Assembly: GCF_000739065.1 (NCBI RefSeq) | Contig: NZ_CP009149.1 | Coordinates: forward strand, 868,001 to 932,000 | Origin: Methanocaldococcus bathoardescens | GTDB lineage: Archaea > AGJL01 > Methanococci > Methanococcales > Methanocaldococcaceae | Length of the DNA: 64,000 nucleotides | Direction: 5' to 3' | Part shown: positions 23,995-54,847 of the stretch, one piece after another | Numbering within the stretch: position 1 is the first letter of the stretch | Layout: every line of letters starts with the position of its first letter | Notes under the pieces: model-generated | What the model saw: the letters and a program-made list of their open reading frames with translations, nothing else | The model's database searches: none | Told to the model about the DNA's origin: nothing | Position numbers and translations under genes: made by a program

Positions 23995-24117
23995 CCGGAG
24001 GGATTTCTTAGGACTTTCGCAGGCAGACATATTTTAACTTTGGAACTTAGACGTCTAAGGGATGTCAATATTCAATATAAAACATTTACTCCTGCGAAAG
24101 TCCTAACTCCCTACCGG
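23995..24117. other. Long inverted-repeat element in the rpoA2-rpl30e gap (structured RNA or MITE-like)
   Basis: A perfect 16-bp inverted repeat, TTAGGACTTTCGCAGG at 24008-24023 and its complement at 24091-24106, encloses 67 bases. Pairing extends outward through AGGGA/TCCCT and CCGG/CCGG, giving about 24 bp with a small internal loop. Inside are a second pair GACAT/ATGTC and the palindrome CTTAGACGTCTAAG. Its GC content is far above the surroundings, as expected of a functional RNA in a hyperthermophile. It lies just before rpl30e in the operon. It does not look like tRNA, SRP RNA or H/ACA RNA. A small TIR element is the alternative. Confidence 0.55.
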
Positions 24118-33271: not shown

Positions 33272-34477
33272 TTAAATCTCCCTTCCTAATGCCTTAGCAA
33301 CTGTCTGAACATCTTTATCTCCTCTACCAGACAAGTTTATAACCATTATATCATCTTTATCTAACTCATTTGCCAATTTAACAGCATAAGCTAAAGCATG
33401 AGAGCTTTCTAATGCTGGTAAAATTCCCTCTAACCTACAGAGTAATTGAAATGCCTCTAAAGCTTCATCATCAGTTACACAAACCGCTTTAATCCTTCCT
33501 TCATCCTTTAAAAATGAAAGCTCAGGGCCGACTCCAGGATAGTCTAAACCTGCTGAAATGCTATAGCTTTCTTCTATCTGTCCAAACTCATCCTCTTTAA
33601 CATAAATCTTAGCCCCATGTAAAACTCCAACTTCTCCAGCACATAATGAAGCTCCATGCATTCCTGTTTCTATTCCTTTTCCTCCAGCTTCAACAGCATA
33701 AAGCTCTACATCATCATCTAAAAACTCATAAAACGCCCCTATAGCATTACTTCCCCCTCCAACACATGCAACAATAACATCTGGCAATCTTCCCTCTTTT
33801 TCTAATATTTGCTCTCTAATCTCTTTTCCTATAACTCTCTGAAACTCTCTAACCATCATTGGGTATGGATGAGGTCCTAAAGCAGAGCCAAGCAAATAGT
33901 AGGTGGTTCTAACATTGGTTGTCCAATCTCTTAAAGCTTCATTTACTGCATCTTTTAACGTCTGTGAGCCACCAAAAACAGGAACAACTTTAGCTCCCAT
34001 CAACTCCATTCTAAAAACATTTAATTTTTGCCTTTCAACATCCTTAGCTCCCATGTAAATGACACATTCTAATCCAAGCTTAGCACATGCTGCTGCAGTA
34101 GCAACTCCATGCTGTCCAGCTCCTGTTTCTGCTATAACCCTCTTTTTTCCCATCTTTTTAGCTAATAAAGCTTGTCCTAAAGCGTTGTTTATTTTATGAG
34201 CTCCTAAATGAGCTAAATCCTCTCTCTTTAAATAAACTTTGCATCCTAATTCTTCACTCAGTCTTTCAGCATAGTATAATGGTGTTGGCCTCCCAACGTA
34301 ATCCCTTAATAAAGCATAATATTCTTCTCTAAAGTTTCCCTCATTATTTATCCAAAATCTTTTGAATGCCTCTTCTAATTCAGTTATAGCTGGAACTAAT
34401 GTTTCTGGAACAAATTTACCTCCGTATATTCCAAATTTTCCATTTTCATCTGGATATTTATCCTTATATTTCTTCAA
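33272..34477 (-). CDS. trpB: Tryptophan synthase beta chain
   Basis: A 401-residue PLP enzyme. The start TTG at 34477 follows GAGGTGTCTGTC; the GTG at 34486 lies on the ribosome binding site. The PLP lysine is in [17 protein letters not shown], and the phosphate loop is [12 protein letters not shown]. It condenses indole with serine to tryptophan. It is a TrpB1-type beta chain, paired with trpA directly downstream; other trp genes are not in the window. Confidence 0.96.
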
Positions 34478-34497
34478 GACAGACACCTCAGGAAATG

Positions 34498-34711
34498 TAT
34501 AGTGTTTTTCAAAACTTAATGCAATTTATAAGGTATGGATATATAGTTTTTTGCAAAATTTATTAAAATTAATATGGAAGATTTGAACGCCTTCTAAAAA
34601 GTAGGCGTTCATAAGTGCCTTATTCATTCCAGGATGTTTTGCAAAAAACTATAAAAGCCTTTGGCTTTTATAAATGCCATTTTCCACATAAACATTTTGA
34701 AAAACACTATA
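34498..34711. mobile_element. Outer MITE-like element with 17-bp perfect terminal inverted repeats, interrupted by another
   Basis: TATAGTGTTTTTCAAAA (34498-34514) and its exact complement (34695-34711) bound 214 bases in the gap upstream of trpB. The interior after removing the inner element aligns along its length with the uninterrupted copy at 37830-37933: both read caaaa-ttaa/tatc-tgcaattt, taaggtat, then ATAAAAGCCTTTGG and TTTTCCACA. No transposase is present, so it would be a non-autonomous element. It separates trpB from the ZIP gene and overlaps the trpB promoter region. Confidence 0.7.
34542..34653. mobile_element. Inner MITE-like element inserted in the outer one
   Basis: TATAGTTTTTTGCAAAA (34542-34558) and its exact complement (34637-34653) bound 112 bases. 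The core holds the hairpin GAACGCCT/AGGCGTTC (34584-34610). Comparing with the uninterrupted copy at 37830 shows the insertion point was GGTATGGATA-TA-AAAGCC, which fits a 2-base TA target duplication, as in the IS630/Tc1-mariner group. No transposase is in the window. Confidence 0.7.
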
Positions 34712-34770
34712 ATTAGATTTTAAGCTCTGAAATAATTATAAGAAATATTCATACTTATACATTATTGAAG

Positions 34771-35466
34771 TTAGTGTAGTGTAAGAAGTCCAGCTAAAAT
34801 ATAGCCTAACAGGATATATAAGAAAGATTTTTCTCTTTTATGTTCATAAATGTGAGGGACAAGCATAAGAAATGTTCCTAAAAAAATTCCTCCTGAAAAT
34901 GCTAACAATATTTTTAAAGATATAGTTTTTAAAGTCATTAGTCCAATAACAGCCCCAATAACTGTTCCCAATGACACAATAGCCCCTATAAAGAAAGGAT
35001 TTCTATAAACTCCTTTTAGTGGAGACATTAAAACAAATCCTGCTGGTAGTTTATGCATTAATATAGCAAGATATAGTGGAAGGCCAATATTGCTAATATA
35101 AGAGACAGCTATAATCAATCCATCTATAAACGTATGAATAAAAAAAGATATTGGATATATAAATTTAATTTTAAGCTCTTCTTCTAAATTATCACAATCT
35201 ACGCAGTATTTTTTTGATAATGGACAGTATGCAAGATATCTTTCAATAAGATAAACAGTTATCATCCCCAAAACTATAAATATTGCAAATCCCTCAAAGA
35301 AAGATTTTGGAAGTAATATTAAAGTTGCAACTCCAAATATAAATCCAAAAGAAATTGCCTCAAATTCATATTTATATTTTAGAGATACAGAGTAATATGC
35401 TAAAATTTCACCAACGCACATAACAATAAAACTTAAAATTGCAATAAATATTGGAATCTCATCCAT
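34771..35466 (-). CDS. ZIP family metal transporter
   Basis: A 231-residue membrane protein with about eight hydrophobic segments. It has the ZIP metal-site motifs SFFIHTFIDGLIIAVS and AILMHKLPAGFVLMSP, plus a C-terminal HIYEH. A cysteine group YCPLSKKYCVDC lies in the cytosolic loop, possibly a metal-binding loop in place of the usual histidine stretch. It starts MDEIPIFIAILSF after GGTGTC. Zinc or iron import is likely. Confidence 0.85.
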   Translation of the reverse strand: MDEIPIFIAILSFIVMCVGEILAYYSVSLKYKYEFEAISFGFIFGVATLILLPKSFFEGFAIFIVLGMITVYLIERYLAYCPLSKKYCVDCDNLEEELKIKFIYPISFFIHTFIDGLIIAVSYISNIGLPLYLAILMHKLPAGFVLMSPLKGVYRNPFFIGAIVSLGTVIGAVIGLMTLKTISLKILLAFSGGIFLGTFLMLVPHIYEHKREKSFLYILLGYILAGLLTLH

Positions 35467-37829: not shown

Positions 37830-37933
37830 TATGGTCATTGTTCAAAATTATCTGCAATTTCTAAGGTATTGGTATAAAAGCCTTTGGTTATTATAAGTAC
37901 CTTTTTCCACAAAACTTTTTGAAAATGACTATA
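37830..37933. repeat. Uninterrupted copy of the outer TIR element
   Basis: The left end TATGGTCATTGTTCAAAA and right end TTTTGAAAATGACTATA are imperfect inverted repeats (one mismatch, one insertion). The interior aligns with 34498-34711 without its inner insert, including ATAAAAGCCTTTGG and TTTTTCCACA. Two diverged copies about 3 kb apart, both in gene-free gaps and both just upstream of genes, support a repeat family. Confidence 0.65.
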
Positions 37934-40500: not shown

Positions 40501-41328
40501 CTATAACCTATCTCTATTTTGCAAAAATCTATAGAATTCATTTGAAAGCTTAACAATATCTTCAACTGAAAGTTTAAAGACCTTCTCGTTTATTAAATTT
40601 TTTATATCCAAGTTAGTATTTGAAAATTCTTCCAATATTTTTTTCATCTCATCTTTACTATAGTTTAATTCCTTAGATGAGTCAATCAACGCCTTCCTAA
40701 CTGATTTATTTCTATGTTGGAAGATAGCCCTCAAAAAATCATCAAAGAAATCTTCATTCTCTATATGATATTTATTTCTATTAGGCTTTATTTTAACTAT
40801 TGCTGAATAAACCTTTGGTCTTGGTGAAAAAGCAGTTGGTGGAACTTTAGCTACTATCTCAACATCTGCTCTTGCTTGCACTGCTACACTCAATCTTCCA
40901 TAGTCCTTTGTTCCTTCCTTAGCTACCATTCTCTTGGCAAATTCATACTGATACATCAAAACAGCTAAATCAAAGCCTTTCTTTATTAGTTTAAATGTTA
41001 TTGGTGATGAAATTTGATATGGAAGATTAGCAACAACCTTATTAAAATCTAACTTGTTTAAATCAACTTTTACTGCATCTCCCCAAATAACTTCAATATT
41101 GTCGTATTTTTCTTTTAATTTATCTTCAAATATCTTTAAATTTTTGTCAATCTCAATAACATAAACTTTTTTAGCATTTTTAGCTAATTCTTCTGTTAAA
41201 ATTCCCTTACCTAAACCAATTTCTAAAACTATATCATCCTTTGTAAGATTTGCAGATTCCACTGCCTTATTAACAAAATTCTTATCTATTAAAAAGCACT
41301 GTCCTAATTTCTTCTTTGGTTTGAACAT
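40501..41328 (-). CDS. rsmA: 16S rRNA dimethyladenosine transferase
   Basis: A 275-residue Rossmann methyltransferase: [17 protein letters not shown], the SAM-binding [17 protein letters not shown], and the catalytic [14 protein letters not shown] (NLPY). It dimethylates two adjacent adenines near the 3' end of 16S rRNA (KsgA/Dim1). The C-terminal domain has [12 protein letters not shown]. It is in a likely operon with coaD and the DUF6293-type gene upstream. Confidence 0.95.
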
Positions 41329-42625: not shown

Positions 42626-44596
42626 CTACTCCAACAACTTAACAACCTTTTCTTCAATCTCATCTACTGGTTTATTTAAAATATTGGCCAATGCCTCAGC
42701 AAATATCCTTGCATACTTCATAACATACTTTCTCTTCTTTTCTTCCTCTGCCTCTCTTCTAATTCTTGATAAATATTTCTCCAACTCCCTACCACAAATC
42801 ATCAACGCATGCCTAATTTCATTATAAATCTCTTCATTTTCATTTTCACTGCAAGCAACTGCCTGCTTTCCTGCTGAGGTATAAGGAATAAACGTAGATA
42901 TTAGATTAACAAACACTGTTATTGGTGCATCTTCCCCTCTCAACCCATATCTCTTCCAATTTATACTTTTAACTGCCTTAGTTAAACCACAAGCAGAGGC
43001 ATCATATAACAAAGGAACGTGGTTGGCAAATCTCATAATCTCCATTCTCCTTCCTTCATCACTCTGCCTTCCTGCATTTCCTCCGTAAGCAATAGCAACT
43101 TCAACAGCGAATGGAATTCCTCCCTTATAAGTTTTTGGATTTCTTGTAATTGCTTTAACAAAATCTGGCTGTAAAAGTTCTTTTAATGATTTTTCTATAT
43201 TCTCTGCTCCAATAGGTCTTAATCCAGTAGTTGGTGGAGCCATGAATTCCATACTTTGTAGACAATTAACAATCATCTCCGCCTCATCCCAAGTTAATTC
43301 CTTAGGATTTTTATTTAAGATGTTTTTAACTTCATCCTCAAATTTTTTTAATTCTTCATCAGATATTAGCCCTTTATTTTTTATTTCAGCAATAAACTCT
43401 TCTGGATTTTTTACAATATTTTTAACTTTTTTATTCAATTCATCAACAACTGTAGCTGATAAATAGTTCTTTTCAGCCCACTCCATAAAGTTTTCTGGTA
43501 TCTTCTTAAAGTGGTTCTTTATTTTGTTTATCTCCTCTTCACTTAGCTTATTAAATAAATATTCCATTGTTACATATTTTAGAGCGTATCTCTTTAATTC
43601 ATCTAAGCTTTCTGGAAGGTTTTTAATTAACATCTTAACTGTATCTATCTCATCATCACTAATGTAATCTTTAAATCTATTTAGATAGCTCTCAATATCT
43701 ATATCTAAATAACAGGAAACTACCATATTCCAAAATACGCTATCTTTAAATTTCTTTAATATCAAATCTCTAAGTAGATAACTTGAAAGCTCTTTAATCC
43801 TTTTTGTTGTAACTCTTGACAATTCAGAGACAAGCATTGAAGATACTTTCTTTGATTTTGTCTTTCTTGCAATATATAACAGCTCATCAGTGGTTAAACC
43901 ATAAGGATGGGGCTTCATCTCCTCTGGTTTTTTTGGCAATTCATCAACAACTCTATCAAATACAACCTCTCCATAAGGGTCTTTTAATACAATTTTTGCG
44001 TGTGGAGATGCTAAACTTATCCTTCTCAAATATTCAAAAGGTCCAAATTCTCCTCTGTTGTAGCTAACTTCCTTAAACTCTCCTTCTACCCTTGTCCCTC
44101 TCCATTTCCCTTTCCTTACCTTTTTTGATACAATTTCTCCCTCGTTTTTCTCAACGTTCATCTTTACATCAACTTCATAGATATTGCCATCTCCTGTTGA
44201 TGTTATAATCTTTAACGGCTTTCCTGTTGTTATTTGTGAAAATAATAAAACTCCTGCTGCCCCAATTCCCTGCTGTCCTCTTGATTGTATAAACCTATGC
44301 ATCTTAGAACCAGCCAACATCTTTCCAAATACTTTTGGAATAAATTCTAAAGGAATTCCTGGACCGTTATCTTCAACCGCTACTTTGTAGTGGTCAGCTC
44401 CCAACTTTTCAATTTCAACTTTTATATCTGGTAAAATACCGGCTTCTTCACACGCATCTAAGCTATTTGTGACCAATTCATGTATTATTGTAGTTAAGCT
44501 TCTAATTTTTCCACTGTATCCAAGCATGTGTTTATTTTTTCTAAAAAATTCAGCAACGGAATGTTCTTTAAATTCTTTAAATAAGGCTTCACTCAT
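42626..44596 (-). CDS. top6B: Type II DNA topoisomerase VI subunit B
   Basis: A 656-residue protein starting [21 protein letters not shown] after GGTGGGAT. The GHKL ATPase motifs are [15 protein letters not shown] (N box), [13 protein letters not shown] (G1) and [11 protein letters not shown] (G2). The C-terminal transducer has the switch-lysine region and [15 protein letters not shown]. It is the ATPase subunit of Topo VI; subunit A is elsewhere. No close partner is adjacent. The C terminus has the coiled-coil [17 protein letters not shown]. Confidence 0.96.
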
Positions 44597-47385: not shown

Positions 47386-47465
47386 CATAGTTCTTTGCAA
47401 AAGTAATTAAAATTAACTAAGAAATCCTTAAAAATTTTAATTTTTAGTTTATTAAAAAAACTATA
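47386..47465. repeat. Degenerate copy of the inner TIR element
   Basis: CATAGTTCTTTGCAAAAGTAATTAAAATTAA matches the left end of the element at 34542 in two blocks (TAGTT-TTTGCAAAA, then ATTAAAATTAA). The right end AAAAAAACTATA matches its right end weakly. The interior is shorter (80 bases) and lacks the GC hairpin. It lies just upstream of the cysteine desulfidase-type gene. Confidence 0.5.
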
Positions 47466-54717: not shown

Positions 54718-54847
54718 ATATTTCACCAAAATACCTATAAACTATCACATATATATATGATTGGGATAATCATCTATCTACTGCTTTTAGAGGACATTAT
54801 GCATTTTATAATTTATGGTTGTTAATAATTTGGAATGGTGAATAGGT

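Follow-up and report, generated by a model that had tools for sequence, protein, structure and literature searches.

The window, a 64-kb stretch corresponding to G000:C1:868001-932000 of the genome (G000) of a thermophilic, methanogenic archaeon, 1,607,556 bases in a single contig, carries on its minus strand a gene at 33272-34486 that we take to be trpB, a name that goes back to readings of the protein in the preliminary description and by ourselves. Orthologues of 87-98% identity are present in 12 other genomes. The start given here is the tool-listed one; a GAGGTG motif looks like the ribosome-binding site, and the true start may be a TTG a few bases further on. The upstream gene ends at 34771 and, by our own reading of its protein, presumably encodes a ZIP-like membrane protein. 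This end is separated by 284 bases from the trpB start near 34486, and 214 of them (34498-34711, no strand assigned) are occupied by a nested structure in which an inner MITE interrupts an outer one.

The preliminary description had reported two perfect 17-bp inverted pairs, one within the other, and both were recovered: the outer arms (34498-34514 and 34695-34711) and the inner arms (34542-34558 and 34637-34653) are each complementary at 17/17 positions. No other exact 17-bp inverted pair with a spacing of 30-200 bp occurs in the 64 kb, and 100 dinucleotide shuffles of the window yielded none. The outer element is about 102 bp long. Its left part (34498-34541, plus strand) bears the TIR TATAGTGTTTTTCAAAA, identical at 17/17 positions to the left end of an IS630 element in a related genome, G011, and its right part (34654-34711, plus strand) comprises a GCC/GGC hairpin and the right TIR, with a few bases of post-TIR sequence resembling the IS630 left end. 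Its TA target duplications lie at 34498-34499 and 34710-34711 (no strand assigned to either). The inner MITE (34542-34653, plus strand; 112 bp; TIR TATAGTTTTTTGCAAAA) occupies a TA adjoining the hairpin of the outer element and is flanked by TA copies at 34542-34543 and 34652-34653; its central hairpin (34584-34611, plus strand) was delimited from the sequence, the family alignment and pair counts. Both elements have the form TAG...CTA with TA on both sides, and no open reading frame of 80 aa or more is listed there.

The uninterrupted relative of the outer MITE that had been pointed out at 37830 (37830-37933, plus strand) stood up to closer inspection. This copy of 104 bp can be aligned with the outer family, with an exact fit to the repeat pattern in the right arm (37917-37933) and a degenerate left arm; it was scored by models R1 and R2, and is itself one of the 8 sequences behind R2. 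Weak or partial relatives elsewhere in the window are an 80-bp element at 47386-47465 and a lone TIR with one mismatch at 40517-40533, and low-scoring model matches were seen at 44313-44443 and 24008-24106.

The trpB region of G006 provides a clean empty site, i.e., AAATCTAATTACATTTC where G000 carries the outer element (AAATG-TA-ATTAG on the strand shown). G006 reads AAATCTAAT-TA-CATTTC as compared with AAATCTAAT-TA-TAGTG...CACTA-TA-CATTTC in G000, such that the 2-base TA duplication of the outer element is exact. A second readable empty site, G003:1073460 compared with G000, lies inside a TATATA run; these two are the only easily read ones, the remaining sites being compatible with TA duplication but diverged. 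The pre-insertion site of the inner element could also be verified, with GGATATAAAAGCC intact and uninterrupted in a sister copy at G003:706735. The empty G006 site shows that the outer element inserted with duplication of the TA, and the uninterrupted outer-type copies, which preserve the earlier state, show that the inner insertion is the later of the two. We therefore consider it very probable that the nested structure consists of two non-autonomous IS630-type MITEs, the outer of which came first and was later entered by a related inner element. A second apparent case of nesting was observed at G000:C1:177475-177676, where the insert within an outer-type MITE is a different one, bounded by inverted ends AACACTTTGACCACA and, it appears, likewise placed at a TA.

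No arm pair was found within 420 bp upstream of trpB in any of the 12 other genus genomes in which trpB was readable; a 13th, G007, was left out of this count because its trpB match is incomplete. Copies at other sites and empty sites do exist, and the nested structure is not common to all species, the two points on which the preliminary description had staked its reading. A lone exact inner-type arm lies about 68 bases upstream of trpB in G001 (L034), at the end of the upstream gene, and might represent a separate insertion event in this intergenic region of a different species. Arms with one mismatch in G005 and two mismatches in G004 were found about 411-413 bases upstream of trpB.

The preliminary description had placed the later insertion in the trpB promoter region. 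Its position upstream of trpB is correct, but both elements lie there and the outer one arrived first. The outer element entered within a few bases of the probable ribosome-binding site, which is intact. Reading of the upstream sequences revealed a TATA-like motif, TGTATAAGTATG, at 34750-34761 (minus strand), upstream of the insert, with GTATAAGTAT common to G000, G003 and G006; we infer that this motif could serve as the trpB promoter. As the motif, also present in the two sister genomes, is more distant from trpB than the insert, the insert may be located in the mRNA leader and not in the promoter core. If the motif is indeed the promoter, the leader would be longer by about 212 bases and would gain most of a predicted fold of -74.4 kcal/mol. 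If transcribed, the insert would form a long folded hairpin between the promoter and the ribosome-binding site.

Both TIR types of the nested structure recur in G000. With up to one mismatch, the TIR pattern matched 79 times in this genome as compared with 7 times for a reversed control, and with no mismatch 51 times as compared with 0. At E 1e-5 a model of the inner type found matches in at least 10 of 14 genus genomes, with at least 73 in G000, at least 77 in G003, at least 74 in G006 and at least 28 in G011, and, among the matches listed, 11 or fewer in each of six other matching genomes; these counts take both strands of the palindrome, so that elements are about half as many. Loci of five genomes gave 81 rows of paired arms, four of which were dropped as mixed or over-long pairings, leaving 77 elements. 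TA is present at both ends in 59 of these, a figure partly produced by the search pattern.

The preliminary description had proposed at least two related non-autonomous families that have moved. The elements are non-autonomous, dispersed and associated with TA, but they are better described as subfamilies of one layout: inner- and outer-type copies are both built, in this order, of a TIR, an AT-rich arm, AAGG, a central hairpin, CCTT, a second arm and a second TIR, and differ in the hairpin and in TIR type. The TIR types found were TATAGTTTTTTGCAAAA (inner), TATAGTGTTTTTCAAAA (outer), TATAGTGTCTTTCAAAA, TATAGTTCTTTTCAAAA and rarer ones, with the dominant type varying from genome to genome. By a crude call of ORFs of at least 90 aa, with overlaps of ORF ends of up to 38 bases allowed, 36 G000 elements were placed between tandem (21), divergent (11) or convergent (4) frames, and none inside a frame. 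A role as transcription terminators is not favoured, given that gaps between convergent ORFs hold only 4/36 elements. Mean identity inside the TIRs was 93% in G011 (8 MITEs), 75% in G000 (24), 72% in G003 (8), 75% in G006 (10) and 81% in G001 (5). Because MITE identity in G011 exceeds the 72-81% of the other genomes, we read these sequences as pointing to recent activity in G011, beside a transposase, and to older copies elsewhere.

Longer composite forms with extra hairpins were noted in G006 (C1:616010-616328, 660609-660977, 748383-748615 and 1584667-1584994), three of the four with an inner inverted pair CACAGGACTTTCACAG; the last has an approximate empty site near 54729-54749 of the window. 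At G000:C1:982190-983030 (L160), a MITE-like element combines an outer-type core hairpin with a distinct TIR (TATAGTCAATCATCAAA) and adjoins what appears to be another insertion sequence, and in G006 another MITE of the family lies a few bases off.

From the TA duplication, the preliminary description had expected a full-length parent of the IS630/Tc1-mariner kind. Such an element, 1155 bp long and present as one copy, was found at G011:C64:8636-9790, in a closely related, metagenome-assembled Methanocaldococcus. Its left TIR equals the outer TIR at 17/17 positions and its right TIR equals that of G011's own MITEs at 17/17, and its right end has the first 27 bases in common with one G011 MITE. 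The transposase scored 158.6 bits against NF033545 (IS630; cut-off 100) and 71.9-73.2 bits against PF13358 (DDE_3; cut-off 28.6), and, among solved structures, it is closest in sequence to the Sleeping Beauty transposase (E 7.8e-6) and to that of Mos1. An HTH frame of 69 aa overlaps a DDE frame at A_AAA_AAG, a candidate motif for the -1 slip that the two frames would require. TA stands on each side of the TAG...CTA of the element, and flank synteny was lost in the loci compared for an empty site. The neighbouring gene, which from our own reading we take to be argH, is 93% identical to its counterpart in G000, its best match among the other genomes. Taken together, the sequences suggest that the G011 element is a likely autonomous parent of the MITEs.

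The earlier remark that no transposase is present held for the whole of G000, which gave neither a PF13358 match nor a protein match to the transposase. G011 was the only one of 14 genus genomes positive in the PF13358 profile search, and a protein search covering 36 genomes from the order returned it as the sole match in the genus, with more distant matches in 3 genomes of other genera. Viral contigs yielded no relatives of the transposase. In another family of the order, the start of contig G034:C7 (L050) truncates an IS630 relative (75% over 52 aa), of which an end with TATAGTT remains. Two TIR pairings in G006 were set aside as parent candidates, one of 1069 bp that contains frames belonging to other genes but none for a transposase, and one of 1339 bp in which a MITE is joined to a distant arm.

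No full-length element bearing the inner TIR was found, which raises the question of whether the inner subfamily was mobilised by a transposase other than that of the G011 element. The sole PF13358-positive element of the genus lacks the inner TIR, and dominant TIR types differ between genomes, as such an account would have it. The subfamilies nevertheless share one layout and one TA target, the inner TIR matches each G011 end at 15/17 positions while these two ends themselves differ at 2/17, and inner-type and G011 copies can be aligned throughout. A separate transposase is unlikely in our view. Far less probable still, to the point of being highly improbable, is that the sequence upstream of trpB is a conserved cis-regulatory RNA, i.e., a leader or attenuator, and not a mobile element. 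The minus strand of the region does fold far better than its shuffles (z -7.8) and stems covary across the element family. The fold is, however, a built-in consequence of nested inverted repeats, similar sequence occurs at many other G000 sites, the G006 site is empty, and the arm pair was seen in 0/12 relatives read, on which ground a conserved trpB leader RNA was rejected. Rfam gave no family up to E 0.1 in L001, the locus containing the nested structure; across the 11 loci searched there was one sub-threshold match, in L200 (26.1 bits against a gathering score of 59), which we take as chance.

The course of events at trpB under the reading as two successive MITE insertions is as follows. 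The outer element entered at a TA just ahead of the ribosome-binding site of trpB, within a few bases of it, and duplicated this TA; the inner element of the related subfamily then entered a TA of the outer element beside its hairpin. In both steps a transposase acting in trans would recognise the ends, excise the elements and join them into TA, as the TIR identity with the G011 IS630 element suggests. With this transposase now undetected in G000, the copies there are probably stranded.

Suyama, Lathe and Bork reportedly described in 2005 palindromic repetitive DNA elements of Methanocaldococcus jannaschii, designated MJRE1-3 and numbering 141 elements. Like the present family, these are short, palindromic and present in many copies in the same genus, and, judged by description, they are probably the first account of it. 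The 2005 report is cited in a review (PMC2229807). The IS630 parent, the TA duplication and the nesting are results of the present analysis. Among the matches listed in the literature search, judged by title and opening of the abstract and with subscription papers mostly outside its scope, we recognised none linking these repeats to an IS630 parent.

Nested IS630-type MITEs are an ordinary kind of event. RUP of Streptococcus pneumoniae, according to PMC3049150, is a 107-bp MITE with TIRs like those of IS630-Spn1 that is tightly folded with its TIRs paired, as are the elements here. It belongs to another domain of life, and we claim no relation in sequence; moreover, the helper IS proposed for RUP is common in the pneumococcus, whereas none was detected in G000. 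IS630/Tc1-mariner elements have the same TA target, and the proposed parent has their DDE_3 transposase and a -1 slip motif, whereas the elements in the window encode nothing. The Correia repeat enclosed elements of Neisseria are likewise MITEs upstream of genes and are reported to invert (review PMC10969869). They differ from the present family in sequence and host, and the apparent inversion described below comes from three genomes and one site. The findings establish which of two insertions next to a biosynthetic gene came first, and they probably connect the palindromic repeats found in Methanocaldococcus with an IS630 parent whose ends match.

We next turn to the palindromes themselves. 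Among 100 elements, 79 had countable hairpins, 55 of these had stems of at least 9 pairs, and 51 of the latter had a clear A- or T-type loop. In a separate count over an alignment of 55 elements of the inner type, pairing was seen in 96.7% of 1571 cells, as compared with 35-51% in slid versions. Changes on both sides were seen in 13 of 29 pairs and in 111 cells as compared with 32.6 in shuffles, where cells count related sequences. Stems and terminal repeats change in step. The 51 loops divide into 27 of A type and 24 of T type. On a tree of the rest of the element, loop type requires 19 changes, where shuffles require 17.2 on average (446 of 500 shuffles were as low), with at least 7 changes forced by well-supported branches; the tree is weak, with 10 of 47 inner branches well supported, 22 open and the bootstrap unsettled. 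In pairs of elements with arms at least 97% alike and stems of at least 9, loops were reverse-complementary in 9, the same in 4 and otherwise in 1 (9, 5 and 1 of 15 without the stem limit); the 9 are non-independent, since six come from within G011 and one from within G000, and the G003-G011 and G004-G005 comparisons contribute one each. Loops present in both orientations numbered 32/55 as compared with a mean of 24.9 for letter-shuffled loops, a result that is uninformative alone.

A single site shared by G004 (866504-866615) and G005 (761845-761956) bears directly on these flips. The flanks are common to both, 95.5-97% identical and contiguous on both sides, yet the element aligns at 94/126 positions in place and at 108/112 when inverted. 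The 4 differences in the inverted alignment are confined to the loop, which reads AAAA in place in both genomes, i.e., the arms are turned and the loop is unturned relative to the chromosome. G009 agrees with G005 in orientation and in the loop and has lost a portion of its left TIR. Inversion of the whole element followed by a flip of the loop would account for this site. Alternatively, an unseen near-identical copy could have inserted at the same TA. In G004, G005 and G009, PF13358 and protein searches detected no IS630 transposase. A second site shared by G004 and G005 is unchanged.

The loop pattern is suggestive of DNA strand switching, though the evidence from these sequences is limited. 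Template switching is reported to yield perfect stems and loop inversions (PMC8794818, PMC8604942). It is possible, and we put it forward tentatively, that flips by strand switching within the palindrome outpace substitutions, keep stems and TIRs perfect, randomise the loops and turned one element. That selection acting on an RNA hairpin keeps the stems perfect is rather doubtful. The paired changes on both sides are what such selection would produce; the loops at both sites shared by G004 and G005 are unflipped relative to the chromosome, 105 background hairpins compared between these genomes over 215 kb included no loop inversion (only 9 have stems of at least 10, making this weak either way), and unequal arms in 40 of the 77 elements imply that homogenisation is not immediate. 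Against selection on RNA, loop orientation carries no tree signal, close copies mostly have reverse-complement loops (most of them within G011), the same two papers treat paired changes combined with inverted loops as a signature of template switching, and matching TIRs are required for transposition anyway. The suggestive case for flips within palindromes comes from one decisive site and one weak tree. If the flips are real, the trpB insert and elements like it would be slow structural switches and not static remnants. They would then also be of wider consequence: paired changes in such repeats are easily taken as proof of a structured RNA, whereas the present elements bear marks that DNA strand switching would leave.

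A survey of 100 elements for shared sites identified 8, four of them with both flanks conserved (2 in the same and 2 in opposite orientation) and four with a single conserved flank, to within 25 bases (1 in the same and 3 in opposite orientation), the latter with differing TIR types. The pair G000:467922 and G003:1200972 is opposite by model orientation, and direct alignment gave nearly equal scores, 85/113 in place and 88/114 inverted, that favour neither orientation. Differing TIR types near the same site with one flank conserved may reflect replacement, conversion, a hotspot or independent insertion. They were observed at G000:434574 and G006:442515, G000:561862 and G006:612915, G000:1292606 and G003:301059, and G000:1362737 and G006:1695655.
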